Source: Vicinamibacterales bacterium (lineage in GTDB: Bacteria; Acidobacteriota; Vicinamibacteria; Vicinamibacterales; Fen-181). Taken from it: 64,000 nucleotides of DNA. This document shows, in pieces, positions 12,733 through 34,307 of the stretch. The position numbers and the translations under genes were made by a program. Position 1 is the first letter of the stretch, and each line of letters begins with the position of its first letter. The stretch spans positions 62,001 to 126,000 of the forward strand of contig DASXVO010000040.1 of assembly GCA_036504215.1 (NCBI GenBank), given 5' to 3'. The notes below the pieces were generated by a model, which saw nothing but the letters and a program-made list of their open reading frames with translations, did no database searches and had not been told where the DNA came from.

Positions 12733-12806
12733 GGGCTGGACCAACTAGCCGCAGTCCTGGGGCAGCGCGGCAACCCTCCGGACGCTCGTGCCGTCTAACG
12801 ATTCAC

Positions 12807-17903: not shown

Positions 17904-18074
17904 CTATCCGTCGCGTCGCGTTCGCTCGCGCCGTATCTCGTCGCCGAGTTCGCCGAGGGCCGGCTCGGTGACGTGATTCCAGGTCCACCCCGTTGCACGA
18001 CCGAGCGAGGCACAGGGCGGGTCGGGATCCGTGAGAATCCGGGACGCCGTGATCAATCCGCGATTGACTTCCAT
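17904..18074 (-). CDS. Putative RiPP precursor peptide 1 (56 aa)
   Basis: A 56-residue gene with a strong ribosome site, GGAGGTGA, 6 bp before ATG 18074. The peptide reads M-E-V-N-R then GLITASRI, LTDPDPPCASL, GRATGWTWNH and a charged tail ending RRERTRRDG. It aligns without gaps over 34 residues to the 43-aa peptide encoded 168 bp upstream: identical positions are M1, N4, G6-S11, I13, P17-P19, C21-L24, G29-W30 and H34. The conserved GLITAS block could be the recognition part, and the C/S/W/H-rich part the modified core. The longer Arg/Glu-rich tail is unique to this copy and may be a follower. It is followed by an FtsX permease and preceded by the exporter and radical SAM genes. The function is inferred from size, pairing and context. 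Confidence 0.75.
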   Translation of the reverse strand: MEVNRGLITASRILTDPDPPCASLGRATGWTWNHVTEPALGELGDEIRRERTRRDG

Positions 18075-18099
18075 TGTTCACCTCCATCGCTGCGCAACG

Positions 18100-18119
18100 G
18101 CCCCCGTCCGATCGGGGGC
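18100..18119. promoter_or_regulatory. Stem-loop just upstream of precursor 1
   Basis: GCCCCCG (18100-18106) pairs perfectly with CGGGGGC (18113-18119) around a 6-nt loop. In the minus-strand transcript it lies 26-45 nt before the start codon of precursor 1, right upstream of its ribosome site. It is one of three hairpins between the two peptide genes. Confidence 0.55.
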
Positions 18120-18121
18120 TG

Positions 18122-18157
18122 CGCCGGGTGGCGCGTCGTCGGGACCTCCACCCGGCG
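18122..18157. promoter_or_regulatory. Middle stem-loop between the two precursor genes
   Basis: CGCCGGGTG (18122-18130) is the exact reverse complement of CACCCGGCG (18149-18157), giving a 9-bp stem with an 18-nt loop in the intercistronic RNA. Confidence 0.5.
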
Positions 18158-18183
18158 TCGGTGATCGCACGCCTCGATCGATG

Positions 18184-18210
18184 GCGCCGGCCCAGGTCGA
18201 GGGCCGGCGC
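18184..18210. promoter_or_regulatory. Strong 10-bp stem-loop after precursor 2
   Basis: GCGCCGGCCC (18184-18193) pairs perfectly with GGGCCGGCGC (18201-18210) around a 7-nt loop. It begins about 33 nt after the stop codon of precursor 2 on the minus strand. There is no U-tract, so it is more likely a 3'-end stabiliser or attenuator than a complete intrinsic terminator. Such elements after a RiPP precursor often raise its level above that of the flanking genes; this is inference. Confidence 0.55.
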
Positions 18211-18242
18211 ATCGTCATCTTGTCCGTCTGGCTCTCGCCGGA

Positions 18243-18374
18243 CTAGGTCGCCTCGGCTTCCTTCGTGTGGCTGTGCTCGAAGTCCCACCCTGCGTAGTAG
18301 CACAGTGACGCGCAGCCGGGGTCCGGCTCTGGTCTGATCGACGAGGCGGTGATCAACCCTTCGTTCTTCTTCAT
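18243..18374 (-). CDS. Putative RiPP precursor peptide 2 (43 aa)
   Basis: A 43-residue peptide with a GGAGGTCACG ribosome site. Its ATG (18374-18372) overlaps the TGA of the ABC exporter (18373-18371) as ATGA, so it is translationally coupled to that gene, strong support for it being real. It reads MKKNEGLITASSI, RPEPDPGCASLCYYAGW, then DFEHSHTKEAEAT, sharing the GLITAS, PDPxCASL, GW and H positions with the second peptide downstream. The likely core has two Cys (21 and 25), two Tyr and one Trp, all residues that radical SAM enzymes crosslink in known RiPPs. There is no GG cleavage motif. The modification and the mature product are unknown. Confidence 0.8.
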   Translation of the reverse strand: MKKNEGLITASSIRPEPDPGCASLCYYAGWDFEHSHTKEAEAT

Positions 18375-20215
18375 CGTGACCTCCAGTCTCCGAGGTGATG
18401 CGCGGCCGGTCGAGGGCCGCGCGGGGTGGTGGGGCAGCCGAAAGACCGCCCCGGGTGCAGTGGACGATTCCCTTCGCCAAGCCGGGCGTGTGCGGCTGCG
18501 AAGAGCTGGCTGTGGATCGCCGGCGCGGAAGGGCGGAACGACTCGTCGACGTCGGCCTCCACAAACGGAACGCGCAAGTCGCAGACCCGGTCCGCAATCG
18601 CCACGACCGCCGGGTCGTGCGAGATGACGATTGCGGTGCGGCCGCGCAGGTAGCTGTCCAGGTGTGCCAGGACCGCGGTCGCGGTCTGCTCGTCGAGCCC
18701 CTTGGTTGGCTCGTCGAGCAGCACGATCGGCGCGTCTTTGAGCATCGCGCGGGCGATGCCCAACCGGAGTCTCTGGCCGTTCGACAGGGCGATTCCGCCC
18801 TCGCCGATTCGGGTGTCGAGACCGCGAGGCAGTGCGCGGATGAACTCGCTGGCACACGCGAGCGAGACAGCCTCCTCGATCTGTTGACTCGATGCGCTCC
18901 GCCTCGCGAGGCGGAGGTTCTCTTCGACCGTGCCGCTCAGCAGGTACGGATCTTCGAACACCACGGCGAGATGAGATCGGTACTGTGCGATGTCGAGCTG
19001 GCGCACGTCGATTCCGCCCAGCAGGATGCGCCCGCTCTCCGGATCGTAGAACCGCAGGAGCAGGCGTAGCACGGTCGACTTGCCGCAGCCGCTCGCGCCG
19101 ACGATCGCGAGCCGCTCCCCCTGGTCGACGTGAAAGGAGAGCCGGTCGAGGACGGGGGGGCCGGAAGGATAGCGGAAGACGATCGACTCGGCACAGAGGT
19201 CGAACCGGTGCGGAACCGGCCCCACCCCGGTGCGGCGTTCACCGGGGAGGTTCCGCAGCTCCACCAGCCGCCGAAGTGAAACGAGTGCGCTCTGCACGTC
19301 GACGTTCTGGCTCAGCACAGCCTGAAGCGGAGAGAAGACGTAGCTGATGAACGCCTGGAAGGCGACCAGTTGACCGACCGACATGCGGCCGGCCAGACAC
19401 TCGGCGGCCCCGAACCACAAGACGACGAACGGCGCAACGGTGCTGACCAGGTACGTCGAGCGCCGGGCCGCTGCCGACGTCATCTCCTCGCGGACGACCG
19501 TGTTCACCATATGGAGGAGTTGCGACCTCTGGCGCAAACGGCCGTCCCACTCGGCCCCGAACGCCTTGACGACGGGCACCCTCGCCAGCACTTCCTGAAG
19601 CCCCCACCCGACCTGCGCGCGGGCGTCCTGCGCGAGCTGCGCGCAGGCGCGAATCCTCCGGTTGAACACGATGATGGTCAGGGCGAACGCCGGCAGCGTG
19701 GCCAGGCACACGAGAGCGAGCTTCCAGGACAGCAGCGTCAGGCTGAGGGCTCCGCCCACGAGCAGAATCGCACTCTGGAGGATGCCGAGCAGCGGGCCGG
19801 CCAGGATGGCGTTGAGGCGAACCAGATCGGCACGCACGCGGGACGCCAGGAACCCCGGCGGGTGATTCTCGAGCGCGATCAACGATGCGCGCTGCAGCCG
19901 CTCGAGGATCTCCAGATGGAAGCTCCCGAGAACGTGCTCGCGCAGCATGACGACGACCAGCGTGTGCGCCATCGTCACGATCGCGTTGAACGCCAGGATC
20001 GCGAACAGGCCGACGACCACGATGGAGAACAGGGAGAGGTCCCGCGCTTTCACGAGGCGATCGACGATCACCATCGTCAGGAACGGGAGCGGGAGCTGCA
20101 CGGCAACGGTCAGCAGCATCGTTGCGGCGGCCAGCCACAGGCGCCGTCGATGCGGCGCGACGAAGCGCCAGAAGGTCCTGAGATCGGATCGCTCCTGGAG
20201 TCCGAGTTGCGTCAC
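18371..20215 (-). CDS. ABC exporter (fused permease-ATPase) of the RiPP operon
   Basis: A 614-residue half-transporter: an N-terminal six-helix ABC exporter domain (residues ~20-310) followed by an ATPase domain. Walker A is GASGCGKST, the signature is LSNGQRLRLGIARAML (LSNGQ instead of the usual LSGGQ), Walker B is PIVLLDEPT and the H-loop is VISHDP. There is no C39 peptidase domain, so leader removal must be done by another protease. A ~70-residue basic, proline-rich tail follows the ATPase. The GTG start at 20215 overlaps the stop of the nucleotidyltransferase gene (GTGA), and its stop overlaps the start of precursor 2 (ATGA). It most likely exports the modified peptide. Confidence 0.9.
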   Translation of the reverse strand: MTQLGLQERSDLRTFWRFVAPHRRRLWLAAATMLLTVAVQLPLPFLTMVIVDRLVKARDLSLFSIVVVGLFAILAFNAIVTMAHTLVVVMLREHVLGSFHLEILERLQRASLIALENHPPGFLASRVRADLVRLNAILAGPLLGILQSAILLVGGALSLTLLSWKLALVCLATLPAFALTIIVFNRRIRACAQLAQDARAQVGWGLQEVLARVPVVKAFGAEWDGRLRQRSQLLHMVNTVVREEMTSAAARRSTYLVSTVAPFVVLWFGAAECLAGRMSVGQLVAFQAFISYVFSPLQAVLSQNVDVQSALVSLRRLVELRNLPGERRTGVGPVPHRFDLCAESIVFRYPSGPPVLDRLSFHVDQGERLAIVGASGCGKSTVLRLLLRFYDPESGRILLGGIDVRQLDIAQYRSHLAVVFEDPYLLSGTVEENLRLARRSASSQQIEEAVSLACASEFIRALPRGLDTRIGEGGIALSNGQRLRLGIARAMLKDAPIVLLDEPTKGLDEQTATAVLAHLDSYLRGRTAIVISHDPAVVAIADRVCDLRVPFVEADVDESFRPSAPAIHSQLFAAAHARLGEGNRPLHPGRSFGCPTTPRGPRPAAHHLGDWRSR

Positions 20216-20979
20216 GACACCCTCGCCCGCGCGGCCAGCCGCGCCTCGCACCACGCCAGGTCTTCCGGCGTGGTCAGGTTGACGTCGAAGGTCGAGACGC
20301 ACTCCGCGCGCACGCGGGCACCGCGGTCGATCAGGGTCTGGATGGCGTCGGTGATGCCGAGTTCGCCGTTCGCGGCGCGGGGCGTCCGTTCGAGCGCCTC
20401 GAAGATGGCCGGAGTGAACGAGTAGACGCCGCATCCCTTGAGCCCGGTCTCCCCCATCGGGGGCTTCTCGATGACCCGCGTCACGCGCCGGTCAGGGCCG
20501 AGCACCACCCGGAAGTTGCGGTGGAACCGCATGGGATCGCGTTCCTCGACGATGGCGACGACGGCGTCGCTCGTACCGTCGAGCACGGGGTCCAGCAAGC
20601 GGGACCCTCGAGCGGGCACGAAGAAGATGTCACCGAGGAACAGCGCAAAGGGACCCCTCACGTGCGGCTGGAGACAGAGAACCGCATCACCCGATCCGCG
20701 TGTGCTCGACTGTTCGATGACTTCGATCGTGCCGGGCTCCGGCCGGACGACCGACAGGTAGTCAATCACGCGCTCCCTTCCGCAGCCGAGGACCAGCAGC
20801 ACCCGGGAGATCCCGAGCCCGTGCATCGCGTCGAGCTGGTGGAGGAGCACCGGACGACCGCCCACCGGAAGCAGCGTCTTGGGCAGGCCGCGGAACGCCC
20901 CATTCATCCGGCTGCCTCGGCCTGCGGCGATGATCGCGCCGGTCAGCGCGTCACGAGCAGAAGAAGTCGCGGTAGCCAT
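20212..20979 (-). CDS. Sugar-phosphate nucleotidyltransferase-like protein
   Basis: A 255-residue nucleotidyltransferase of the GT-A-like fold that activates sugar or alditol phosphates with NTP. The nucleotide-binding loop GAIIAAGRGSRM is at residues 14-25 and the substrate Lys lies in LPKTLLPVGG. A metal-binding Asp is in FALFLGDIFF, and the IEKPPMGETGLKGCGVYSF segment is typical of the family. ATG 20979 overlaps the glycosyltransferase gene by 29 bp and has an AAGGTG ribosome site. It presumably makes the nucleotide-activated donor used by a glycosyltransferase of the same operon. The sugar cannot be told from sequence. Confidence 0.85.
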   Translation of the reverse strand: MATATSSARDALTGAIIAAGRGSRMNGAFRGLPKTLLPVGGRPVLLHQLDAMHGLGISRVLLVLGCGRERVIDYLSVVRPEPGTIEVIEQSSTRGSGDAVLCLQPHVRGPFALFLGDIFFVPARGSRLLDPVLDGTSDAVVAIVEERDPMRFHRNFRVVLGPDRRVTRVIEKPPMGETGLKGCGVYSFTPAIFEALERTPRAANGELGITDAIQTLIDRGARVRAECVSTFDVNLTTPEDLAWCEARLAARARVS

Positions 20980-22396
20980 CGTGAAGCACCTTCCAACTGA
21001 AGTGCGCGACCATGTAGTCGCGGTGATCGACGAACTCGTCCGAGTCGAGAAGCCCCAGGATCTTCCGGCCCATCTCCGGCAGGTCCTGGCACAGGTGGAC
21101 CAATGGGGCGCCATCGACGCGCGATCGTTGCCAGTGATACGACGGCAGGTCGAGGTTGACGCACGTCATGCCGCAGGCCAGCGCTTCCGCCGTGACGTAG
21201 GAGTAGAAGTCGGCGATCGACGGCAGGACGTGAATCCGGCACCGGGAGTACTCGGCGACCACATCGTCGCCCTCGCGACGTCCCGCGAACTCGACGTGAT
21301 TCGTCAGGCCGAGCCGTTCGATCGCCGCCCGAAGGCAACCGATTTCCTGCCGCTCGACCGGCGCAGACGACTCGATGTCGCCCACGAGCCGCAGTCGTAG
21401 TGCCGGACGGTGGTCCACCATCCCCCGGAAGGTCTCGAGGAACGCCCGCACGCCCTTGTTCGCTGTCAGGCGACCGACGAACAGCAGCGTCTCCTTGTCA
21501 CGTTCGACGGGAAGCGGCCTGAACCGATCGGTGTCGACGGGGTACGGAAGCTGTACCAGCTTCTGCCGCGGAATGCCCCACGCCAACGCGTGCCGGTAGT
21601 CGGGCTCCTGCAACACGAGCAGCTTGCCGATGCGTTCGGCGTCGTACCAGCACCGGTCGCCGCCACGAAGGCCTGGCGGCTGGAAGAAGGACGGCACGAG
21701 CAGCCACTGCCGCGATGGGAAGAACTCGACCACGTCCTGAGCGAGGACCTGCGGGTAGAAGTAGGTGACGATGGCGTCGGCGTTCGACTGCTGAAGCGCG
21801 CCGAACAGATCGGAGGATCCGACCGTGTAGTTGCAGAGCGCCTCGGCGTCGCCAGCACCAGCCGCACCGAATGTTGCCACCCGCCGCCGAAGCCGGCACA
21901 CGTCGGTCCACCGGGGAACCGTGAAGCGCGCGACCGGAACCCCGTCGATGACCGCGTGCGCCGGCAGGTCCGGGCGCCTGTCGTAGGTGAAGACGAGGTG
22001 TTCGAGCGGCTCGGACAGGTGAGCGCAGATGTCCGCGATCTGGCGCTGCGTGCCGGACAGGTGGGGCAGATAATCGGACGTCACGTGGACGATGCGCTTC
22101 TTTGGCCTCCGCGCGACGAGGACTTTCGACCGAACCATCGCGGACAGTGTCCGAGGGCTCTGCAGCGTGTCCGGTCGAAGCTCGCCGTTTTCGACCCTCA
22201 CGCCCAGTGCGTCCTCGAGGTCGGTGAGCAGCCCGCACACGCCGTCGGCCGTGATGCCCAGGACGCCGAAGGGTGAATCGAACCACGGTGGCGGCGCCGG
22301 CAGCTCGTTCTCCCGTCCCGCGGCCAGCCTCATGGCGTGCTCGATGCCGCCAGCGTCCGGGACGGTCGCCGCGGTGAGAGAACCGTCCACGCGCAT
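20951..22396 (-). CDS. GT4-type glycosyltransferase with N-terminal degenerate carrier-protein-like domain
   Basis: A 481-residue protein. Residues ~100-480 are a GT-B glycosyltransferase of family 4: HVTSDYLPHLSGTQRQI at its start, LLFVGRLTANKGV in the linker region and the donor-site segment HVLPSIADFYSYVTAEALA with the conserved Glu. Residues ~43-92 look like an acyl/peptidyl-carrier domain (CGLLTDLEDALGVRVENGEL and a TLSAMV helix), but the phosphopantetheine-bearing DSL is replaced by TADG, so it should not be chargeable. ATG 22396 overlaps the CPBP gene stop (TGATG). Within a RiPP operon it may glycosylate the peptide; the degenerate carrier domain may serve for docking. Confidence 0.82.
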   Translation of the reverse strand: MRVDGSLTAATVPDAGGIEHAMRLAAGRENELPAPPPWFDSPFGVLGITADGVCGLLTDLEDALGVRVENGELRPDTLQSPRTLSAMVRSKVLVARRPKKRIVHVTSDYLPHLSGTQRQIADICAHLSEPLEHLVFTYDRRPDLPAHAVIDGVPVARFTVPRWTDVCRLRRRVATFGAAGAGDAEALCNYTVGSSDLFGALQQSNADAIVTYFYPQVLAQDVVEFFPSRQWLLVPSFFQPPGLRGGDRCWYDAERIGKLLVLQEPDYRHALAWGIPRQKLVQLPYPVDTDRFRPLPVERDKETLLFVGRLTANKGVRAFLETFRGMVDHRPALRLRLVGDIESSAPVERQEIGCLRAAIERLGLTNHVEFAGRREGDDVVAEYSRCRIHVLPSIADFYSYVTAEALACGMTCVNLDLPSYHWQRSRVDGAPLVHLCQDLPEMGRKILGLLDSDEFVDHRDYMVAHFSWKVLHDGYRDFFCS

Positions 22397-23259
22397 CACG
22401 CGGCCTCCCGCACCGGTGCCGCCCAACCGCCCTGGCGCCGGGCGAGCATCAGCAGGCCAGCCGCGACGACGAGCAGGAAGAGCGCCGTCACGATTTTGAA
22501 AACCACCAGCTCGAGGTGACTGCCGAGGTGATAGTTGAAGGTGAACACCCGGGATACCTCGAACGCCGGAACGCGGTAGAAATAGATGCCGTCGCCCCAG
22601 AAGTCCCACCCGGCGTGAATGCCGATCGCCAACCACAGCGACCGGGTCACGATCACCGCGAGCGCGAGGACCACGCCGAGCAGGAAGAGATTGAGGAGCA
22701 CGAGAACGCCCACGCCCTTGAACGCATGGATGAGGCTGTAGAGCACCGAGGAGGCGACGACGGCCACCGGAACCGCGCGATAGCCTCGGAGGAGCCGCGT
22801 CAGCACGTACCCGCGGAAGAGCAGTTCCTCGCCGAGTCCGATGCCCAGGTTGATGACGACCCCGAGGCCCACGCCCACGGCGGCCAGTTGCACCGGGAGT
22901 CCGGTGATTGTCACGCGGCGAAGATCGGTCCAACCCGCAGCATGGTGCACCGCGCCGATGCCGCCGACCGCCACGCCCGCCACCACGAACCCAATCGCGA
23001 GCGCCCGAACGAGCCTCGCATCCCGCACGACGCCCAGGTTGTTCAGGCCTTCGCGGTGGACGAAGTGCTGGTAGGCCGCGACGAACAGGAGAGTGAACGG
23101 CAGGATGAACCAGATGCCCACGACCCGCGTATGGGTGAGCAGCGCGACCGGAATGACGCAGACGAGGGACAGCACGAGGAACGATACGAGGAAGATCAGG
23201 ACCTCGCAGAGCGGTGCGAACAACGGCCAGACGCGTGACCGGATGGTGGGTTGATTCAC
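22396..23259 (-). CDS. CPBP-family intramembrane metalloprotease
   Basis: A 287-residue membrane protein with about eight helices. The CPBP (Rce1/Abi) catalytic motifs are present: GEELLFRG (Glu144, Glu145, Arg149), a His in SLIHAFKG and HAGWDF in the third motif. Members cleave prenylated proteins or act in bacteriocin immunity and maturation. GTG 23259 overlaps the stop of the preceding gene and follows an AGGAGG ribosome site. Since the ABC exporter lacks a C39 domain, this is the best candidate in the operon for leader removal, or it may give self-immunity. Both are inference from context. Confidence 0.88.
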   Translation of the reverse strand: MNQPTIRSRVWPLFAPLCEVLIFLVSFLVLSLVCVIPVALLTHTRVVGIWFILPFTLLFVAAYQHFVHREGLNNLGVVRDARLVRALAIGFVVAGVAVGGIGAVHHAAGWTDLRRVTITGLPVQLAAVGVGLGVVINLGIGLGEELLFRGYVLTRLLRGYRAVPVAVVASSVLYSLIHAFKGVGVLVLLNLFLLGVVLALAVIVTRSLWLAIGIHAGWDFWGDGIYFYRVPAFEVSRVFTFNYHLGSHLELVVFKIVTALFLLVVAAGLLMLARRQGGWAAPVREAA

Positions 23260-24596
23260 GACATGACCTCCTGGGCACGAGCGAGGATGCGCTCGGAGAT
23301 GGCGGCGGCGCCCGGCAGGCGCGTCAACTCGGCGCAGTACGCCGCCTGGTGTTCCCGGAGTTCCCGCCGAACCGATTCGTCGCAGAGCAGCCGCTGGAGC
23401 GCACACGTCGTCGCGCCCTCGTCGAAGAGTTCGAGGCGTTCGAACGTACGTGCGTACCGATTGCCGTCGAACAGCGGCCGCAGCTCCTCGAGCCAACCGA
23501 GCGGGAAGACCGCCGACGGGAAGATCGACCCGGGCGCCTCGCGCTCGATGGATCGAACCAGGCCCTCGACGTGCGCCGACAGGGGGAAGGGCGAGTCGAA
23601 CGCCACGCCGTCGGCGGCAGGGCGGGCAGAGACGCTGTTGACGAAGGCGGCCGCGGGAACTCCGGCGATGACCGCGCGCGTCACCGTCGCCGACGTGACG
23701 TTGTCGGCGATGACGAGATCGCTGGTGCGCACGAGGTCATCGACCACGCTCACGGGCAGGCCAGAGCGGTACTGCAGGGTGACCTGGCCCGAGGTCTCGA
23801 CGCGGTCCTCGAGTTCGCCGCTGACGAACACGAGTCGAACGGGAACCAGGCACGCGGAGAAGTACCGGGCGAGCAGGCGCGGGTAGTAGCGCATGTACGG
23901 GATGCCAAGCGTCGTGCACAACTGGATCGCCCAACTCCCCACCGGCACGAGCACGAGGCGCTCGTGGACCGGGAGGCCGAGCCGACAGCGAACTTGATCC
24001 GTGCGCTCGCCGGGCGACCCGGCGCCGCCGGAGAGGTTGAACTTGAAGATCCGGTCGTCGGGGTCGATCCGGGGGTCGTGCAGCGGGCACGGCCGGACGA
24101 TCGCGGCGATCCGGTCTGGAAGCGGCTGGATCTCACAGATCTTCGTCCTCGGTCGCGGTCCTTTCGGTGCGCCGGGGTCTCCGGCCTTGGGCGCCTCGAA
24201 CCGGCGCAGACACTCGATCGTGATCCTCCGCAGCCGAGGGTGCAGCATGAGGTGGTCGAAGGTCGCGACGGGGCACGAGAGATCGAACAGCCAGTTGTTC
24301 GACCAGACATGGGCGACATCCGCCGACTCGTTGAGGTAGTAGTCGGACGTGATGATCAGGGACGGGGAGATCTCGCGGGCGGCGAGATTCAGCGCCCGCT
24401 GGTTCGCCGTCCGATCGTCGGAGAGCGGCGCGACCTTCCATCCTCCCTGCCGGAGGAAGTCCGCTGCGAACGGGAACGCCGCGAACCTGACGTTCCAGCC
24501 GTTCGCCGTCAGATCCGCCGCGAAGCGCGCGGCGGTGTAGGTCTCGCCGAGGCTCTTCTGGCGAGCTGTCACGAAGAGCGCCGAAGGCGTGGTCAC
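23256..24596 (-). CDS. Glycosyltransferase-fold protein, DUF6365-like
   Basis: A 446-residue protein whose N-terminus (ALFVTARQKSLGETYTAARF) and overall pattern resemble GT-B-type proteins of the DUF6365 kind. The C-terminal half has a DLVIADNVTSATVTRAVIAG segment, similar in position to the nucleotide-sugar site of MGT/UDP-glycosyltransferases. No catalytic residue can be named with certainty. GTG 24596 overlaps the stop of the upstream radical SAM gene (GTGA), and its own end overlaps the CPBP start. With the GT4 gene and the nucleotidyltransferase it forms a sugar-transfer set inside the operon. Confidence 0.65.
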   Translation of the reverse strand: MTTPSALFVTARQKSLGETYTAARFAADLTANGWNVRFAAFPFAADFLRQGGWKVAPLSDDRTANQRALNLAAREISPSLIITSDYYLNESADVAHVWSNNWLFDLSCPVATFDHLMLHPRLRRITIECLRRFEAPKAGDPGAPKGPRPRTKICEIQPLPDRIAAIVRPCPLHDPRIDPDDRIFKFNLSGGAGSPGERTDQVRCRLGLPVHERLVLVPVGSWAIQLCTTLGIPYMRYYPRLLARYFSACLVPVRLVFVSGELEDRVETSGQVTLQYRSGLPVSVVDDLVRTSDLVIADNVTSATVTRAVIAGVPAAAFVNSVSARPAADGVAFDSPFPLSAHVEGLVRSIEREAPGSIFPSAVFPLGWLEELRPLFDGNRYARTFERLELFDEGATTCALQRLLCDESVRRELREHQAAYCAELTRLPGAAAISERILARAQEVMS

Positions 24597-25999
24597 GGTG
24601 TCACCCCCTGGGTCCGGGGCGCAGCGGCCGCGGGGAGACACGGCGAATCGCCGGCTGCAGACCGGTACTCGTCCTGGAGAGGTCCGTGGTGGCGCCAGAC
24701 GGACTTGTAGAAGGCGCAATATGGGTCGCGCGCGTAGATATTTCCGGAGGCGCTCTCGGCGTGGGCCATGCAGCCGCCCGCACAGAAGTAGCGGCACTCG
24801 CAGCCGGCGCACCCCGGCACGCGATCGACGGTGCGGTCGAGGTACGCGCGCTTCGCCTCGGTCGAGGTCAGCACACGCTCGAGTTCCGCGTCATCGAGCG
24901 CGCTCACGCGTCCGAGACAGTGCCGAGCGTCGGTGAGGTTCGGGCACGGATGGATGGCGCCGTCCGCGTGGATTGCGATGATGCGATCGAGCCGGCAGTC
25001 GGTGCGGACGCGGGTCATCGCCAGCTGACCGTCGTCGGCATCCGCGCCGCCCGCCGCCAGACGTTTGGCGACCGCCCGCTGGTGCAGCGCGAACATGTCG
25101 GCGCACGAGGTGGTGAGGCGGTCTCGATTGCAGAGTCCGCGGCCGGTCGGCACGAAGAAGCCGAATGACACGTCGGCGCCAAAGGCGGCCGCGACATCCA
25201 CCACGTCCTCGAGGTGTTCGTGGTTCAGTCGCGTGACGGTCGGGTTGATCGACACGCGCGCCATCGGGAAACCGTTCGCGCGCAGCGTCTCGAGCCCGCG
25301 GATCGTCCTCGCGAACGTGCCCGCTCCGCGAATCCGGTCGTTCAGATCGGCCGTGGCGCCGTCGAGGCTGATGTTGAGGGAGTCGACGCGCGCCGCAAGC
25401 ATGCCGGCGACGGCGCCGGTGAGCAGCGTCCCGTTGGTGACCAGGGTGATCGATCCGAACCTGGAGCGGGCGGTCGCGAGGATGTCTTCGATGTCCCGCC
25501 GGAGGAGCGGCTCGCCCCCGGTGACGATGAGGCGGGTGAACCGGCACCGCGCCGCGACGTCGAGAAGGCGGTGGATCGCGGGCAGGTCGAGAACGTCCGG
25601 TCCCGTCCGCTGGTCGGCGTCCATGTAGCAGGTGATGCACGAGAGGTTGCAGCGCGACGTGACGTGAAGGTGCAACGCGCGTGGCGCTGGCTCCGCCATG
25701 CCGGCAGCGCCTGGTGCCGTAACCTCAGCGGCGCTCTCTCGAACGAAGCCGTGTTCGCGCAGGTAGGCCACCGTATCCCGGATCGCCTCGGGAGAGAACC
25801 GAGAAGCCGGTGTGCCGACGCCGGCTGATGTCGGATGGCCGCCAGCGACGACGGAGCGGACGGCCTCGAGCCCCTCGCGAGGCATGCGGACCCATGTCCC
25901 CGCGGGAACGTTCAGCACGAGTGCCTGCGTCGCCTTGGCGATCACGTGGGTGCCCGGGGTGAACTCCAACGGTGTCAGGTCGCCTCGAGCCGGTGTCAT
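24593..25999 (-). CDS. Radical SAM/SPASM peptide maturase with N-terminal PqqD-like domain
   Basis: A 468-residue enzyme. Residues ~15-90 form a PqqD-like RiPP recognition element that would bind the precursor leader (VLNVPAGTWVRM, then RDTVAYLREHGFV). The radical SAM barrel starts with CNLSCITC (Cys117, Cys121, Cys124), with GGEPLLR for SAM binding and LNISLDGA. The C-terminal SPASM domain, carrying auxiliary Fe-S clusters, shows CRLDR, HPCPN and GCAGCECRYFCAGGCMAHA. ATG 25999 overlaps the stop of the preceding radical SAM gene (ATGA). It is likely one of the core enzymes installing a C-C, C-S or C-O link or an epimerisation on the GLITAS peptides. The reaction type cannot be read from sequence. 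Confidence 0.9.
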   Translation of the reverse strand: MTPARGDLTPLEFTPGTHVIAKATQALVLNVPAGTWVRMPREGLEAVRSVVAGGHPTSAGVGTPASRFSPEAIRDTVAYLREHGFVRESAAEVTAPGAAGMAEPAPRALHLHVTSRCNLSCITCYMDADQRTGPDVLDLPAIHRLLDVAARCRFTRLIVTGGEPLLRRDIEDILATARSRFGSITLVTNGTLLTGAVAGMLAARVDSLNISLDGATADLNDRIRGAGTFARTIRGLETLRANGFPMARVSINPTVTRLNHEHLEDVVDVAAAFGADVSFGFFVPTGRGLCNRDRLTTSCADMFALHQRAVAKRLAAGGADADDGQLAMTRVRTDCRLDRIIAIHADGAIHPCPNLTDARHCLGRVSALDDAELERVLTSTEAKRAYLDRTVDRVPGCAGCECRYFCAGGCMAHAESASGNIYARDPYCAFYKSVWRHHGPLQDEYRSAAGDSPCLPAAAAPRTQGVTP

Positions 26000-27483: not shown

Positions 27484-27810
27484 TCAATGCTCCTCGTTGC
27501 CACGGCGGGCACCGGCACCGCCTGCGAGGACGCGCCGGCGCCGCGCGAAGACGAATGCAAGGAATACCGTGAGCGCGGCGATCCACGTCAGCACCGCCAC
27601 GACCGGGGTGAACTCCTCCGGGCCGATCCGTCCGACCGCGATCCTGACGAACCACAGGAGACCCAGGATTATGACGAGCGCCGCGAGCGTGCCCCTGAAC
27701 AGCGCGCGCTGATAGCGTGCCTCGAGGCCGTCGGGCACGCCGCTACCGCACGACGGGCAGGTCCGCGTTGCAGCCGTTCCCACATCACGCCCGCACGTTG
27801 GACAGAACAT
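27484..27810 (-). CDS. Small zinc-ribbon membrane protein
   Basis: A 108-residue protein with an N-terminal zinc ribbon (MFCPTCGRDV, then TCPSCGSGV: two CxxC knuckles), then two hydrophobic membrane helices (LAALVIILGLLWFVRIAVG and a second at ~75-92) and a basic Arg-rich end. Its start at 27810 lies inside the 3' end of the upstream radical SAM gene, whose last 26 bp it overlaps. The zinc ribbon may be cytoplasmic and serve as a protein contact. The function is unknown; the position suggests an accessory or immunity role in the RiPP operon. Confidence 0.75.
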   Translation of the reverse strand: MFCPTCGRDVGTAATRTCPSCGSGVPDGLEARYQRALFRGTLAALVIILGLLWFVRIAVGRIGPEEFTPVVAVLTWIAALTVFLAFVFARRRRVLAGGAGARRGNEEH

Positions 27811-28777
27811 CGCATTGCTCCTGCAGACCGCCGGACGCCCGGGGGATTCGCGGCGCCGGACCAGGCCACGTGGAAAACGGTTCGAGATCGGCGTGACCGA
27901 ACAATTGGTGGTAGTTCGTGTACACGCCCCCGCACGCGGTCCTCGCCGCGCAGCCCGCGCAAGGCGGGGCCAGGCGCTTGCCGGTAGCATTCAGACAGTC
28001 GTCGTAGTCGTCGATGACCTGCCCGTAGAAGAGCATCCGCTCCTTGCGCGTCCGCCACCACTCGACGCAGAGGCGCTCGTGCGGGCGGACCGCGCAGAAT
28101 GGAAATCCCTCGAGCACGGCGTGCTGGCCGATCTCGTCGCAGTACCGGATCGTCTCGTCGAGGACGGGGAGGAGCTCGGAGTACGGCACAGCCAGGTTGC
28201 GAAGCCCGCTTGCCGCGAGGCCCGCCGGGCACAGCCCCGCCAGGTTCACGGTGTCGACGCCAGCACGCGAGAGGACGCCGGCGATCGCGCGCAGGTCCTG
28301 GTAGTTCTGTTGCACACAGACCGTGGCGGACTGCACGCCCTGCCCCAGGCGCTTGACGTTGTCGATGCCTTGCATCGCTTCGTCGAAGCTCCCCGGCACG
28401 GTCGTCAGTCCGTCGTGCACCGCCGCGTTCGGGCCATGTACCGAGATGACGAAGAAGGACACACCCAAATCAACGAGACGCTTCGCGTAGTCCGCATCGG
28501 CGAGACGGCGCGCGTTGGTGAACATGATTACCGTGGGGTAGCCGTACTGCCGGATCCGACGCAGTAGCTCGACGAGTGGCTCGTAGACGGTGGGCTCACC
28601 GCCGATGACGCACACCGCTTCGTACCCGCGGCCGGTGTGCTCGCGCAGAAACGCGTCGAGGGCCGGCAGGGGAACGGTCTCCGGCGGACGGCCGAGCGGG
28701 TCGGTCGTGCAGAACCGGCAACGGTTCGTGCAGCGTCGCGTCACGTGGAGCGTGATGAAGTACTGGGGAAGTCGCAT
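27785..28777 (-). CDS. Radical SAM enzyme without recognition domain (paralogue A)
   Basis: A 330-residue protein that begins straight at the radical SAM barrel (MRLPQYFITLHVTRRCTNRC), with cluster cysteines 16, 20 and 23 in CTNRCRFC, and CVIGGEPTVYEPL for SAM contact. A SPASM-like Cys set lies at the end (PPCAGCAARTACGGVY). It is clearly related to the next upstream enzyme (28788): both have an F-V-I/I-V-SVHGP strand, LEGFPxC and the CGGVY ending. ATG 28777 follows a GGGGGAGG ribosome site. It lacks a PqqD-like domain, so it may use the recognition domain of the other two maturases or act on another substrate. Confidence 0.87.
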   Translation of the reverse strand: MRLPQYFITLHVTRRCTNRCRFCTTDPLGRPPETVPLPALDAFLREHTGRGYEAVCVIGGEPTVYEPLVELLRRIRQYGYPTVIMFTNARRLADADYAKRLVDLGVSFFVISVHGPNAAVHDGLTTVPGSFDEAMQGIDNVKRLGQGVQSATVCVQQNYQDLRAIAGVLSRAGVDTVNLAGLCPAGLAASGLRNLAVPYSELLPVLDETIRYCDEIGQHAVLEGFPFCAVRPHERLCVEWWRTRKERMLFYGQVIDDYDDCLNATGKRLAPPCAGCAARTACGGVYTNYHQLFGHADLEPFSTWPGPAPRIPRASGGLQEQCDVLSNVRA

Positions 28778-28787
28778 GATCCTCCCC

Positions 28788-29705
28788 CTATGCCGCACCG
28801 GCAACCTGCGGCTGGAACTCGTCCCAGCCGTGCAGCTGGACGTAGGGTCGGTAGACGCCGCCGCACTCGCCGGTCAGCGCGCACGCCGCGCAGGAGGCCC
28901 CCTTCGTCTTGCACGTGGACGCGACGTACGCGTCGTGGTTCTGCCAGATGACGCCGTGGATGAGGCAGGTGATCTGGTGCCCGTGCCTATCGTCGCGCGC
29001 CAGGCAGAGATGCGCGAGTTCCGGCGCGGCGCACGACGGGAATCCCTCGAGCGTGGCGACCACGCCGCGGTCGAGCGCGACGCGGACGGCGGCGACGACG
29101 TGCGGCGCGATGCGGTCGAATCGGGGCATGAGAGCCGCCCCGGCCGCCGCCGCGCGCCCGGCCGGCATCAGGCTCGAGATGTTGACGTGCGAGGCACCCG
29201 CCGCGATCACCCGCTCGACGGTCGCCGCCAGGAGGCTGAAATTGCGCGTCGTCACGACGGTGTTCGTTCGCACCGCGCAGCCCAGCGCCGCCGCATGCTC
29301 TATGCCGCGAAGCGCCCGAGAGAGGCCGCCGGGAACGCCGCACAGATCGTCGTGGATGTCGGCGGTGGGCCCGTGGACCGAGACGATGAAGAGCGAGACG
29401 CCCGCGGCGGCGAGCCGCTCGACGAAGGCACGGTCGGCAAGCGCCCAACCGTTGGTTTGAAGCGATACCGACGGATAGCCGAACGCCCGCACGCTGGCGA
29501 GGACGTCGAACAGATCGCGGCGCAGTGTCGGTTCACCCCCGTGCAGGTTGACTCGTTCGAATCCCTGGTCACGGTTCGACTCGAGGAAGACCTCGATATC
29601 AGCCGCGGCGACGTCCCCGCCCTCTCGCACCAGTCGATCGCCCCACACGCAGAACTGGCAGCGGAAGTTGCAGCGATCGGTGACGTGGATGCTCAGCTCT
29701 CTCAT
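28788..29705 (-). CDS. Radical SAM enzyme without recognition domain (paralogue B)
   Basis: A 305-residue enzyme starting MRELSIHVTDRC with CNFRCQFC at Cys12, Cys16 and Cys19, LHGGEPTLRRDL for SAM binding, FIVSVHGPT and LEGFPSCAAP. The C-terminus carries auxiliary-cluster cysteines (ASCAACALTGECGGVYRPY). It is a paralogue of the 27785 enzyme, separated by 10 bp. The open frame extends upstream through a stretch reading VVYETGRSPVL, so a longer GTG-initiated form cannot be excluded; ATG 29705 has only a weak AGG ribosome site but begins at the family N-terminus. Confidence 0.87.
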   Translation of the reverse strand: MRELSIHVTDRCNFRCQFCVWGDRLVREGGDVAAADIEVFLESNRDQGFERVNLHGGEPTLRRDLFDVLASVRAFGYPSVSLQTNGWALADRAFVERLAAAGVSLFIVSVHGPTADIHDDLCGVPGGLSRALRGIEHAAALGCAVRTNTVVTTRNFSLLAATVERVIAAGASHVNISSLMPAGRAAAAGAALMPRFDRIAPHVVAAVRVALDRGVVATLEGFPSCAAPELAHLCLARDDRHGHQITCLIHGVIWQNHDAYVASTCKTKGASCAACALTGECGGVYRPYVQLHGWDEFQPQVAGAA

Positions 29706-29854
29706 GACGTGCCTGTGTCCATCACGATGACCGGCGGAAGGCCGTTCGACCTTCCGCATCGGGTCCGTTGCCGGGAGAACGGGCGATCGGCCCGTTTCGT
29801 ACACCACGTCGCGATGCCCGCCACGCCTCGGCCGCTCCTCCCGTGGGAACCCGG

Positions 29855-30373
29855 CTACAGGTCCGAGCCGTAGGGCATGCACCAGGTGCCGGCTCGGAGA
29901 GGCTCGCCTTCACCCTGCGCGCGACCGCGGCTCTGTCGCCGCCCGTGGATGGTGCAGTACCGTTCGACGTCCTTGGCCGCCCGACGTGCGGCGTCGCTGT
30001 CGATCTCCGGGCGGAACCCGGAGTGGCGGACGGCCCGATCCCCGAGCAGGAAACCCACGTTGATGACCGTCTGCCGATCGAGGAGCCAGCGGTTGCCGAA
30101 CCGATGCAGTGCCCCGAGGAAGCGTTCGCGATAGTGCTGGCGAAGCCAGATGACCGCCTCGCGCCGAACGGACTTCCGGTCGCCCACCGCCTGGCCGAAT
30201 GCCAGGAAGCAGTCCTCGAGAATGTAGTCAACGGCCTCTTCGCGGGTTCGTCGCTCGGCCGAGGCGGCATCGGCGATGCGCTGGCTCGCCACGTCGGCGA
30301 CAATGCCGCGCTCTTCGTCCGGCATTCGAAGTCCAGGGGGCACGTACGTGAGCAACGGGTCTCGGACGGACAT
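29855..30373 (-). CDS. Uncharacterised 172-aa protein (paralogue of the next upstream gene)
   Basis: A helical 172-residue protein that I do not recognise. ATG 30373 has a strong AAGGAGGGG ribosome site. Residues ~45-145 (AVDYILEDCFLAFGQAVGDR, AVIWLRQHYRERFLGA, RFGNRWLLDRQT, FLLGDRAVRHSG) align with the gene at 30468. This copy adds a 40-residue N-terminal part with a short Pro-rich motif (LLTYVPPGLRMP) and a basic tail ending AGTWCMPYGSDL. The tail holds a single Trp, Cys and Tyr, which resembles a peptide core fused to a long leader, but this is speculation. No membrane segment or catalytic motif is visible. Confidence 0.7.
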   Translation of the reverse strand: MSVRDPLLTYVPPGLRMPDEERGIVADVASQRIADAASAERRTREEAVDYILEDCFLAFGQAVGDRKSVRREAVIWLRQHYRERFLGALHRFGNRWLLDRQTVINVGFLLGDRAVRHSGFRPEIDSDAARRAAKDVERYCTIHGRRQSRGRAQGEGEPLRAGTWCMPYGSDL

Positions 30374-30467
30374 CTCTCCCCTCCTTGCTACGTTTCGCAG
30401 CGTTCTGATACCACTCTCCGCGAGACGGGTGACCTGAGCGTGGCGTCGCGATTCCCGGCGGACGTCG

Positions 30468-30821
30468 TCAGGATTCCGGGCGTGCGCCAGCAGGTGTGTG
30501 TCCCGCGCCCAACCCCCGCATTCGGCACCCCGCTTCGACTTCAGCCGACGCCGTCATCGCCGCCTTCAGGTCCACGTTCGGTCGGTCACCCGCATGGACG
30601 CGAGCCCGCTCGCCGAGGAACCTCCCCACGCCGTGCAGTCGATCACGGTCGGCCTCCCAACAGTTCCCGAGATCGGTCATCGCGTAGAGGAAGAAGCGGC
30701 GGTATCTCTGACGCCACCACACGATCGCGTCGTAGTCGACCCGCTTGCGTCGTCCGAGCGCGCGGCCAGCGGCGAGAAAGCAGTCGGCAAGTACGAAGTC
30801 AACTTCCTGCTCTGCGTCCAT
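30468..30821 (-). CDS. Uncharacterised 117-aa protein (short paralogue)
   Basis: A 117-residue protein homologous over ~100 residues to its neighbour: EVDFVLADCFLAAGRALGRR, AIVWWRQRYRRFFLYAM, LGNCWEADRDRLHGVGRFLG and RARVHAGDRPNVD. Conserved features are the DCFLA helix, a W-x-RQ-x-YR helix, GN-x-W and VGxxLGxRA, suggesting a compact all-helical fold. It lacks the N-terminal and C-terminal extensions of the other copy. ATG 30821 has a GAGG ribosome site. The longer open frame upstream of it is probably leader DNA. It sits between the kinase and its paralogue. Confidence 0.68.
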   Translation of the reverse strand: MDAEQEVDFVLADCFLAAGRALGRRKRVDYDAIVWWRQRYRRFFLYAMTDLGNCWEADRDRLHGVGRFLGERARVHAGDRPNVDLKAAMTASAEVEAGCRMRGLGAGHTPAGARPES

Positions 30822-30979
30822 GTGGGCCTCGCATTGTTTCAGCGGTTGTTGCGACCGTCGATGCGAGAACGCCAATCCGGGCCACCTCGTACACCACCCC
30901 GGACCGGACGATCGCTCAGGCGTCGCCGGCTCTTGCGTGGAATGCCGAGGCGCCGTCGGCCGGCGGCGTCCCGTCGATG

Positions 30980-33715
30980 TCAATACCGTGCTTGGATGGT
31001 GGCGCGAAGACGCTGGCAGGTCTCCCGGAACTCGGCCGCGGTCGACGGACGCGCGCGAGGGTCACGCGCCAACGCCCGGCCCAGGAACTCCGCCACGGCG
31101 GACGGGCAATCGACGGCATACGTCCGGACGTCGGGCGGGGCGGACTGCCGCACGCGCTGAACGACCGCGTGAGCCGACGCGGCAGCGAACGGATTGCGCC
31201 CGGCCAGCGCCTCATACAGCAAGACGGCCAGGCTCCACAGGTCGACCAATGGGTCCGGTGGGAACCCGGCGAACGCCTCAGGCGACAAGTACGTGAGGGT
31301 TCCGGCGAGGTGCTGCGACCACTCGTTCTCAGCCCCGGCGGCCACGCGGTCGGTCGCCGCTGCCGCGCGCGCCTCGGTGCCGATGTCGGCCAGGCCGAAG
31401 TCGAGGAGCTTTGGCACGCCGTCTTTCGTGAAACCGACGTTGCTCGGTTTGACGTCGCGGTGCAGCACCCCGGACAGATGCAGCCGTTCGAGCACGTCCG
31501 CAAGGGCGACGGCCAGGTCGATGGCTTCGGCCGGCAAGAGCGGACGCCGCCGGAGCCGGTCGGCCAGCGTGCCCCCGTCCAGGTACTCCATCACCAAAAT
31601 CAGTGTCGATCGCCATCGTTCGGTGCCGTGGATGAGCGCCAGGTTCGGGTGTTGAAGCATCGCCATGGCGCGCGCCTCTCGCTGGAGGACGGCCACACGC
31701 TCGGGGGCAAGGCGCGCTACGGCCTTCAGGGCGACCCTGCGGTCCAGGACGACGTCCACCGCTTCGTACACGACGCCCATGCCGCCCGTGCCGATCAACC
31801 GATTCACATGGAACTTCCCGTGCAGGAATTGCGGGAGCGCCGCGGTGCTTGTGCCGCCCCCGCATCGACAGAGACGGGTGAGCGACGGAAGCACGGCTTT
31901 ACAGGCGGAGCACAGGGCCGCGGGCTCGTCGCTCCAGTCCCCCGGTTCGTCTGCGTTGAACCGAACGGCATCGCGACCCCGGCCATGTCGCTGATCGCTC
32001 AGGCGCCAGTTCTCGACGACGATGGCCGCGTGGCCGGCCATCAGACTCAAGACCACCTGGTCCTCGGCGTCGTACGGCAACTCGGTACGCCGTTCGGTCA
32101 GCGCCAACACGCCGGTCGGCCGCTGCCCCCACCACACGAGCGGCACCAGCAGTTGCACGGCACTCTCGACGAGCCACGCCCGGTCGTCGGGAGGCAGCAA
32201 GTCGAAGAGCGGGCTGCGTTCGTCGCCGGCAACGCGGATCACTTGTGCGGAGGCGATCAGCAGGCGGCCCAGTGTCGATCTCGCGGAGAGTGACGGCGTG
32301 TCCTCCTCCACGGAGACGAAGCGTTCCGCCTTCTCATCGAGCAGGAGCACGGCAACCCGCCGCGGGTGCAGGGCGCGCTCGACTTCTCGGGCCAGCGTCG
32401 TCGAGATGTCCCGAACGCCTCGCGCCTTTCGCAGTTCTCCGTCGAGGGCCGCGATGATCCGTGGGAAGTCCGGGCTGCTGCGCAGAAAGAGCCGGTCGAT
32501 GGCCCGGAGGAGTCGCTGACGGGCTGCAAACAGCACGAGGCCCAGCCCCAGCACCGGAGCGAGCGGCGAGAGCACGAGGGTCGAAACCAGGACGTAGACG
32601 GTCTCGTGCCGACGCATGACCACGTAGAGGCAGAGATACGCCAGCGGAACCGCGGACAGCAACAACACGGCCTTCCGCGCCGCCGCGTACCGGGTCGCCC
32701 GTCGAATGAGCGGCTTGAGGTCCATCACACGGTGCACGAGGACCGCGTACGCGGTCGCCGGCACGATGGAGAGCAGGAACAGGTAGACGACGACGCCGAA
32801 GGCTGGACGATGCGTGGGATCTTCGATGAACGGCGTGAACGGCGACCCGAGAACGACCACCAGAATGGGTGTGAAGCCGACGACGAGCGCCCCGGTGAGG
32901 AAGCCGCTCCGGCGCCGCTCCTCCCGCGAATCGAACCGCGACCGCCACAGGAGGAACAGAAGGGCGGGTGCACCCACGCTGAAGAGCACCACCCAGTACC
33001 AGCTTCGGGTGGGTTCGAGGCGATCGCCGAACACCAGCAGCGCCGCATGCTGAGTCGGTCCGTAGAGGAGACCGAGGTTGACGAGCGCCAGCGCCACGCC
33101 GACGGCGAAGGCGACGGCGGTAAACCGCCGGGAGACCCGCAGGTGAACAGGGTTGGTCGCCGTGTTGGGGAAGGCCGAGACGAAGCGCCACAGCGCGTAC
33201 GAGAGGAACGCATCGGCCGCCGTGTGCGTCAGAAGCGTCGTCAGCCGCTCGAGTTCGGGCCAACGATCGGCCAGTCCGACGAGACGGTCGGCGAAGGCGG
33301 AGGCAATGACGAGAAACAGCCGGCCGAGGCTGCGCGCACGCTGATCGCCGCTGCCTGCCTGTGTCAGGACCACGGCGGCGATGCCGAACGTGGCGAGGCA
33401 GGCCACGTGCGGCCAGACGGACCGGGACAACGCTCCGTCGATGACGGCACTCGTGATCGCCGCCCCCGTGCCGAATGCGACCTTGACAGCCGCAACGATC
33501 AGGACGAGCGTGAACGTGAACGAAACCAGGCGATGTTCGGCGGGCCTGGGCAGGGGCTCGACGGGCCGGGCGGCCGCGGCAAGCGACGCCACGGTCTTGA
33601 AGTGGCGGACACGGGCACGCTCCGACTCGGTGGCGGCGGCCTCGGCCTCGGCCCAGTCGACGGGCCTTCCGTCGGCGATCGCTTCGGCAATCGACGCGAG
33701 CCGGTCCTCAGCCAT
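30980..33715 (-). CDS. Large membrane Ser/Thr protein kinase with GAF domain
   Basis: A 911-residue sensor kinase. A short cytoplasmic N-terminus is followed by about nine membrane helices (~70-400), then a GAF-like domain (REVERALHPRRVAVLLLDEK, LVPLVWWGQRPTGVLAL), a Cys-rich knuckle (CSACKAVL, CRCGGG) and a C-terminal Hanks-type kinase (~630-900). The kinase shows the glycine loop GTGGMGVVYEA, catalytic HRDVKPSN, DFGLAD and the SPEAF segment, so it looks active. ATG 33715 overlaps the sigma factor gene by 8 bp. ECF sigma factors coupled to such kinases are often switched on by phosphorylation, so the pair may sense a signal and control the RiPP operon. Confidence 0.9.
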   Translation of the reverse strand: MAEDRLASIAEAIADGRPVDWAEAEAAATESERARVRHFKTVASLAAAARPVEPLPRPAEHRLVSFTFTLVLIVAAVKVAFGTGAAITSAVIDGALSRSVWPHVACLATFGIAAVVLTQAGSGDQRARSLGRLFLVIASAFADRLVGLADRWPELERLTTLLTHTAADAFLSYALWRFVSAFPNTATNPVHLRVSRRFTAVAFAVGVALALVNLGLLYGPTQHAALLVFGDRLEPTRSWYWVVLFSVGAPALLFLLWRSRFDSREERRRSGFLTGALVVGFTPILVVVLGSPFTPFIEDPTHRPAFGVVVYLFLLSIVPATAYAVLVHRVMDLKPLIRRATRYAAARKAVLLLSAVPLAYLCLYVVMRRHETVYVLVSTLVLSPLAPVLGLGLVLFAARQRLLRAIDRLFLRSSPDFPRIIAALDGELRKARGVRDISTTLAREVERALHPRRVAVLLLDEKAERFVSVEEDTPSLSARSTLGRLLIASAQVIRVAGDERSPLFDLLPPDDRAWLVESAVQLLVPLVWWGQRPTGVLALTERRTELPYDAEDQVVLSLMAGHAAIVVENWRLSDQRHGRGRDAVRFNADEPGDWSDEPAALCSACKAVLPSLTRLCRCGGGTSTAALPQFLHGKFHVNRLIGTGGMGVVYEAVDVVLDRRVALKAVARLAPERVAVLQREARAMAMLQHPNLALIHGTERWRSTLILVMEYLDGGTLADRLRRRPLLPAEAIDLAVALADVLERLHLSGVLHRDVKPSNVGFTKDGVPKLLDFGLADIGTEARAAAATDRVAAGAENEWSQHLAGTLTYLSPEAFAGFPPDPLVDLWSLAVLLYEALAGRNPFAAASAHAVVQRVRQSAPPDVRTYAVDCPSAVAEFLGRALARDPRARPSTAAEFRETCQRLRATIQARY

Positions 33716-34307
33716 CCTCCATCTCCCGGGCAAGGCGTTCGAGCGCGCGCCGCACCGCGAGTCTGGCCGCTTCCGCCGTCGGCTTGTCGAGGACGAGAGC
33801 GAGTTGTTCGTAGCTGTATCCGAGCTCGAGGCGTGCCACGATCGACTGGCGGTCGGCGGGCCGGAGACGCATCACGGCGCGCCGATACAAATCCTGCTGC
33901 TCCCGGTCGATCGCGAGAGCGAGCGGGGATTTCCCCGAGTTCGAGGGCTCCTCCTCGAGTTCCGCATGTCTCGGGCGCCGGCCCGCCTGCCTGAACTGGT
34001 CCCGAATCCGATTGACCAGCGACCGCCGCAGGTACCCGATCAGCGCACCGTCGCGCTGCGGTTCGAATGCAGGAAGGCGCCTGAGCGTCTGGAGGACCGT
34101 TTCCTGCACGAGGTCCTCGGTGTCGACTGCATCCCTCGCCCAGGTCGGCACGCGCCGACGGGCCCACGCATGCAGACGCGGCAAGTAGCGCGCGAAGAGC
34201 ACTTCGAGCGCGCGGGCCTCACCGCGTCGCGCACGATCGAGGAGTTCGTTGGAGTTGGCTCCGGTGAGCGTCGGACGGGACGGAGGTGTCGCCGGCGCTT
34301 GGCTCAT
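33708..34307 (-). CDS. ECF-type RNA polymerase sigma factor
   Basis: A 199-residue sigma-70-family protein. Region 2 spans ~25-95 (ALEVLFARYLPRLHAWARRR, DTEDLVQETVLQTLRRL) and region 4 ~145-195 (LRPADRQSIVARLELGYSYE with the DNA-binding helix EQLALVLDKPTAEAARLAVR). There is no adjacent anti-sigma factor; instead it overlaps the membrane kinase gene by 8 bp, a setting typical of kinase-linked ECF groups. The ATG at 34307 has a GGGGG ribosome site. It is the first gene of the minus-strand run that ends with the precursor peptides. Confidence 0.9.
   Translation of the reverse strand: MSQAPATPPSRPTLTGANSNELLDRARRGEARALEVLFARYLPRLHAWARRRVPTWARDAVDTEDLVQETVLQTLRRLPAFEPQRDGALIGYLRRSLVNRIRDQFRQAGRRPRHAELEEEPSNSGKSPLALAIDREQQDLYRRAVMRLRPADRQSIVARLELGYSYEQLALVLDKPTAEAARLAVRRALERLAREMEDG

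Follow-up and report, generated by a model that had tools for sequence, protein, structure and literature searches.

Gene content of the cluster

The window, the whole stretch of DNA analysed here, comprises 64,000 nucleotides of a Vicinamibacterales genome (phylum Acidobacteriota; assembly GCA_036504215.1, contig DASXVO010000040.1, positions 62,001 to 126,000). It contains a run of sixteen genes, from position 34307 down to 17904 and all on the minus strand, that includes four radical S-adenosylmethionine (SAM) enzymes, several sugar-related genes and two short open reading frames (ORFs), precA and precB. We consider it reasonably probable that the genes from 29705 to 17904 are an operon for a ribosomally synthesized and post-translationally modified peptide (RiPP) that is both radical-modified and glycosylated. 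What speaks for this is that one part of the cluster, an HxsC-like radical SAM enzyme with a DUF6365 protein and a nucleotidyltransferase, recurs beside RiPP-type precursors in five other clusters.

A sequence-only reading of this DNA had described genes that run in one direction with tight spacing and encode four radical SAM proteins, two glycosyltransferase-type proteins, a nucleotidyltransferase, an intramembrane protease and an exporter, and the description held up. Eleven of the fifteen junctions from the sigma factor gene to precB are overlaps or gaps below 30 bp (-8, 10, -26, 0, -4, -4, -4, -4, -29, -4 and -4 bp), sizes that rest on the start codons we picked. From rB to precA, all nine junctions overlap or abut. 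The wider gaps separate the kinase gene from sm1 (158 bp), sm1 from sm2 (94 bp), sm2 from rA (149 bp) and precA from precB (168 bp).

The four Pfam Radical_SAM matches fall in rA (28788..29705), rB (27785..28777), rC (25996..27483) and rD (24593..25999). These genes span 5.2 kb. The whole genome has 44 such matches over 5.92 Mb, so the presence of four within about 5 kb is not a matter of chance. The quartet consists of two diverged pairs. rA, the partner of DUF6365 by family alignment (nine sequences) and tree position, and rB are HxsC-like and 38% identical to each other in a 3-sequence alignment. rC, of the peptide-maturase type (Radical_SAM, 80.8 bits), and rD are 33% identical, and each has a weak match to SPASM. 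In other genomes of the phylum, rD-like enzymes were seen near precursor-like short ORFs at three loci (L179, L181 and L182). Between rB and rC lies ZnR (27484..27810), a small protein with hydrophobic segments and a zinc-ribbon-like N-terminus (CPxC...CPxC), for which the zinc-ribbon matches are all below cut-off.

The DUF6365 gene (23256..24596) follows rD. Its product matches PF19892 over profile positions 1-403 of 404, with 198.7 bits against a gathering cut-off of 32.5. Next come a CPBP/Rce1-like membrane protease (22396..23259; PF02517, 64.8 bits), which we infer to be a candidate leader peptidase, and a GT4-type glycosyltransferase (20951..22399; PF13692/PF00534). GT4 and the Rce1/CPBP, NTP-transferase and ATP-binding cassette (ABC) domains of this part of the cluster all score above the Pfam cut-offs, and the second glycosyltransferase-type protein is the DUF6365 protein, by virtue of its predicted GT-B fold. 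At its N-terminus the GT4 protein is extended by roughly 90 residues with no Pfam assignment. By eye the extension recalls a carrier domain minus its serine; we do not claim a carrier-protein-like domain, as Pfam gives nothing here at E 5. The sugar-1-phosphate nucleotidyltransferase-like protein (20212..20979; PF00483, PF12804) also has NCBIfam matches of the Arch_glmU/AglF/RmlA type, below their cut-offs. The ABC exporter (18371..20215) carries both a membrane domain (PF00664) and an ATPase (PF00005).

At the end of the run are the candidate precursors precA (18243..18374; 43 residues), which shares 4 bp with the exporter gene, and precB (17904..18074; 56 residues). The two are 55% identical and have in common the block GLITASxI..PDPxCASL, with a conserved N-terminus and a divergent C-terminus, and a Shine-Dalgarno-like sequence lies upstream. 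They close an overlapping run that contains the four radical SAM genes, the arrangement of a short precursor beside tailoring genes by which RiPP clusters are recognized, and we regard them as probable ribosomally made precursors.

A recurring unit of radical enzyme, DUF6365 and nucleotidyltransferase

The rA family was sought in 84,980 genomes of bacteria and archaea, with an alignment of rA, rB and one relative as the query. Of 288 matching stretches, 160 could be confirmed; the 80 highest-scoring of these 160 loci were analysed. We defined the unit as the joint presence, in a span of about 10 kb, of an rA-family enzyme, DUF6365 and an NTP-transferase. Four loci stand apart, with E values of 1e-61 or lower, while the remaining loci have values of 3e-30 or higher. 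The four belong to Clostridiaceae bacterium M8S5 (L043), a Blastocatellia metagenome-assembled genome (L044), Virgisporangium ochraceum (L045) and Streptosporangium carneum (L046), the last two being Actinomycetota. All four have a nucleotidyltransferase nearby and carry DUF6365 (two copies in L043 and L045, one in L044 and L046). Neither DUF6365 nor a nucleotidyltransferase was found in any of the 76 lower-scoring loci by profile search at E 1e-3, in loci of 3.2 to 21 kb, some with short flanks. A DUF6365 profile built without L043 to L046 recovers those four and nothing else among the 80 loci, and in the genomes of these four every DUF6365 match sits in the cluster (2, 1, 2 and 1). A fifth other cluster with the unit is that of G008 (locus L029), from the same phylum as the window. 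The unit is therefore present in the window and in five of five other strong members of the rA family. The co-occurrence of radical SAM and glycosyltransferase-type genes in relatives, whose absence would have spoken against the sequence-only reading, is thus found in the four strongest of the best 80 loci and in G008.

Among 396 genomes of the window's phylum, DUF6365 scores above cut-off in four and the rA family is found at E <= 1e-45 in two, both among those four. No rA match at E <= 1e-20 was obtained in four genomes of the same genus, and in a sample of the class Actinomycetes the rA family occurred in one of 296 genomes, the one on which the sample was centred.

rA contains the motifs CxxxCxxC and LEGFPxC ... 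CxxCx5CxGVY. Nine rA-family proteins have in common CxxxCxxC and a C-terminal LEGxPxC ... CxxC-x5-CxGVY, with FEG for LEG in one of them, and the C-terminal cysteines may bind an auxiliary iron-sulphur cluster. In a tree that included five outgroup rows, the nine proteins form one group (support 95/97), which places the rA family as a clade of single origin.

Each of the five other clusters has, next to the unit, a short ORF that matches NF038399, a model of the Os1348 family in the NHLP clan (E values of 4.6e-11 in L045, 1.5e-9 in L043, 2.1e-8 in L046, 3.1e-5 in L044 and 3.2e-4 in L029). Judged by sequence, these five are RiPP clusters. L043 from the Bacillota and L045 from the Actinomycetota even have the same gene order, namely a B12-type radical SAM gene, the precursor, an rA-type gene, a small protein, an rA-type gene, a small protein, two DUF6365 genes and an aminotransferase. 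The syntenic stretches are L043:6271-15460 and L045:6304-15410, and the aminotransferase is of class III. In Streptosporangium carneum a polysaccharide pyruvyl transferase-like gene (L046:10909-12324) follows the rA-type gene.

Comparison of the neighbourhoods, which the sequence-only reading had proposed as a check, separates the cluster into two parts. The HxsC-like enzyme, DUF6365 and the nucleotidyltransferase recur together; rC, rD, GT4 and the CPBP protease do not travel along. The conserved unit therefore consists of the first three only, with the SPASM-like pair, GT4 and the protease outside it.

Pfam assigns no function to DUF6365, and we found no mention of it in open-licence PubMed Central papers. 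We modelled the 446-residue window protein with AlphaFold from seven sequences (mean predicted local distance difference test score, pLDDT, 77.6; predicted template modelling score 0.81). The predicted fold is like that of LanGT2, SpnG, CalG3 and MurG, at 12-18% identity. Foldseek matched the model to CalG3 with an E value of 6e-12, and VIA-align placed model range 4-446 on LanGT2 with a Z of about 21 and a root-mean-square deviation of 3.9 over 309 residues. A search of PDB sequences gave no significant match; the best profile match was a UDP-glycosyltransferase at E 0.65. The model thus suggests that DUF6365 is likely to be a transferase of the GT-B fold. It is likely rather than proven because epimerases of the same fold score nearly as high. 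As the nucleotidyltransferase is present in all six clusters, sugar transfer is the simplest reading for DUF6365. In G019 (locus L035) and G215 (locus L036), two further genomes of the phylum sample, DUF6365 by eye lies beside a methyltransferase gene, and L035 also has APS-kinase-like and phosphodiesterase-like genes.

The upstream cassette and the probable start of the operon

The first four genes of the run encode an ECF-type sigma factor (33708..34307; PF04542), a Ser/Thr kinase with a GAF domain (30980..33715; PF00069), the small protein sm1 (30468..30821), which has no known family, and the small protein sm2 (29855..30373), which is 44% identical to sm1 and ends in a near-invariant AG[Y/T]WC tail. 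sm1 and sm2 were matched in 12 of 149 related genomes: the window's own, ten with the pair and one with a weak single match. In each of the ten other genomes, all of the same order, the pair adjoins the kinase gene in an identical gene order, and the sigma factor is visible in nine (in the tenth, L167, the contig begins within the kinase gene). The fetched surroundings of these ten cassettes, 8-20 kb each, contain no match to rA, rB, rC, rD, DUF6365, the nucleotidyltransferase or GT4.

Because ten other genomes carry these four genes without the pathway genes, the cassette appears to be a conserved unit of its own and not specific to the peptide pathway. The claim that a single operon runs from the sigma factor was therefore dropped. 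Since the cassette is separable and a gap of 149 bp precedes rA, position 29705 is the simplest start for the biosynthetic operon. The cassette is of a regulatory type and may control that operon.

Proposed pathway and its alternatives

The sequence-only reading knew of no named pathway with this combination of genes. The closest NCBIfam models to rA and rB are HxsC (TIGR03977) and HxsC4 (NF038332), and the scores of 90.7 to 132.5 bits are well under half of the His-Xaa-Ser system cut-offs of 267.9 and 500 (for TIGR03977, 90.7 for rA and 106.7 for rB against 267.9). The window precursors by eye have no His-Xaa-Ser repeats, and the partner of rA/rB is DUF6365. HxsB is not among the 25 best NCBIfam matches listed for each radical SAM protein (42 to 78 families were matched by each). 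rC and rD have the SPASM maturases StsB, PqqE and MftC among their NCBIfam neighbours, all below cut-off, and the best matches of rC are StsB and MftC, well under the cut-offs. The MftC cut-off is 265 bits; rD reaches 120.1 and rC 90.8. On these NCBIfam cut-offs we rejected membership in the mycofactocin and Hxs systems. In open-licence PubMed Central papers on radical SAM/glycosyltransferase/RiPP, Os1348/NHLP, HxsC and mycofactocin topics we found no named system that has the rA/DUF6365 unit. The underlying idea is not new: passages of PMC7491314 describe mycofactocin as a ribosomal peptide that undergoes both radical SAM modification and glycosylation, with MftF as a GT2 enzyme. The window resembles that system in combining radical SAM and glycosyltransferase genes for a ribosomal peptide. 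It differs in having four radical SAM genes, an exporter, and GT4 and DUF6365 instead of a GT2 MftF, and in its precursors, which end in EAT (precA) and RDG (precB) and not in Val-Tyr. It also differs from the NHLP/Os1348-clan pathways, as the precursors of the five other clusters match NF038399 and those of the window do not.

The candidate precursors thus appear to be of a type local to the window and distinct from the Os1348 type. At E <= 1, 110 of the 149 genomes gave a match to them, which is background. Five of the best outside hits (L149-L153) have no pathway-enzyme matches save one weak nucleotidyltransferase match in L153. precA contains CYYAG, the L044 precursor CYYFG, and the L046 precursor ends in YY. 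We claim no acceptor residue, because precB has no tyrosine.

In the pathway that we propose, precA and precB would be translated as precursors, and their cores would be altered by radical chemistry through the HxsC-like rA/rB and the SPASM-like rC/rD. The nucleotidyltransferase would supply an NDP-sugar, and DUF6365, probably together with GT4, would transfer the sugar to the peptide, as fold and recurrence suggest. The CPBP protease may then cleave the leader and the ABC transporter export the product. As rC/rD-type enzymes elsewhere adjoin short precursor-like ORFs, rC and rD are the likeliest partners of precA/precB. The sequence-only reading had pointed to a peptide that is both radical-modified and glycosylated. 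The recurrence of the unit with RiPP-type precursors in five clusters strengthens it; the glycosylation part is drawn from folds and neighbours.

Several observations weigh against this proposal. Two of the four phylum genomes with DUF6365, G019 and G215, have no rA family at E <= 1e-45, and on an unrooted tree the DUF6365 of the window groups with the copies from these two. UDP-GlcNAc 2-epimerases are among the fold neighbours of DUF6365, with a Z of about 20. rC, rD, GT4 and the protease are not common to the other clusters, and four of the five NF038399 matches lie under the cut-off of 40 bits, only that of L045 (42.6) being above it. The SPASM matches of rC (17.9 bits) and rD (17.3 bits) are below the Pfam cut-off of 21.5. 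Searches for a RiPP recognition element were negative: rC and rD have no Pfam match within residues 1-124, and PqqD has no match there either. The structure model of rD is poor (mean pLDDT 50), too poor to judge whether a PqqD-like domain is there. precA and precB match nothing in NCBIfam or PHROGs and lack the Os1348 leader of the precursors in the five other clusters, and the 149 genomes contain no credible relatives of them, the weak hits at 3e-4 and above having led nowhere.

An alternative is that two pathways lie in one operon, with rC and rD acting on precA/precB; rA/rB, together with DUF6365, the nucleotidyltransferase and GT4, would then make a separate sugar-containing product or use another substrate. 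Enzymes like rC/rD occur elsewhere beside short precursor-like ORFs, where we noticed no sugar genes by eye; the syntenic L043 and L045 clusters are without rC/rD, and precA and precB are of another type than the Os1348 precursors that accompany the unit. Against such a division, the unit adjoins a RiPP-type precursor in all five other clusters, and the genes from rB to precA overlap or abut at every junction. We think it unlikely, although it carries some weight. precA and precB could instead be accessory or regulatory peptides of small size, or remain untranslated, in keeping with their lack of a family match and of relatives. This is improbable, given their identity to each other (55%), the Shine-Dalgarno-like sequence, the 4-bp overlap of precA with the exporter gene and the cysteine within the common PDPxCASL block.

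The product could also be a glycosylated redox cofactor derived from a peptide, as with mycofactocin, and not an exported peptide. MftC is among the best NCBIfam matches of rC/rD, and according to passages of PMC7491314 mycofactocin is itself a RiPP made with radical SAM and glycosyltransferase enzymes. The MftC scores stay far under the cut-off, however, the precursors have no Val-Tyr end, the cluster has an exporter and a membrane protease, and the MftF of that source is a GT2 enzyme where the window has GT4 and DUF6365. This makes a cofactor very improbable. Hardly any credence can be given to sm1 and sm2 as the true substrates of rA/rB, with sm2 resembling a leader and core. They do lie upstream of rA, as the precursors do in L029, L043 and L045, and sm2 has its near-invariant tail in 11 of 11 proteins (AGYWC in ten, AGTWC in the window) after a variable linker. 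One would expect variation in a core, whereas this tail is constant, and the ten other genomes have the pair by the kinase gene with no match to rA, rB, rC, rD or DUF6365 in the 8-20 kb fetched.

We thus prefer a single pathway to a radical-modified and glycosylated peptide. It would give DUF6365, a Pfam family without a function, a testable role in glycosylating ribosomal peptides, and the pair of rA-type and DUF6365 genes is a handle for finding further clusters. To our knowledge, few known ribosomal peptides carry both radical and sugar modifications; mycofactocin is one such case. A doubtful extension is a RiPP class that spans phyla, in which the HxsC-like enzyme, with its auxiliary Fe-S cluster, would open or create a site on the peptide for the sugar added by DUF6365, with a carbon-linked sugar or a sugar-peptide cross-link as possible outcomes; in the window the unit would have been grafted onto a SPASM-type precursor system. 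The named strain Streptosporangium carneum is open to direct testing, as its cluster is simple and has one copy of each gene.

The gene set of the sequence-only reading stands but left out one neighbour. A MacB/FtsX-type permease (15413..17875) lies 28 bp 3' of precB on the same strand and is possibly co-transcribed with it. Downstream of the cluster, two permeases of this type (12372-15365 and 15413-17875) face one another. Elsewhere in the window, 45872-46216 on the plus strand shows weak similarity to rC (31%, query 191-301).

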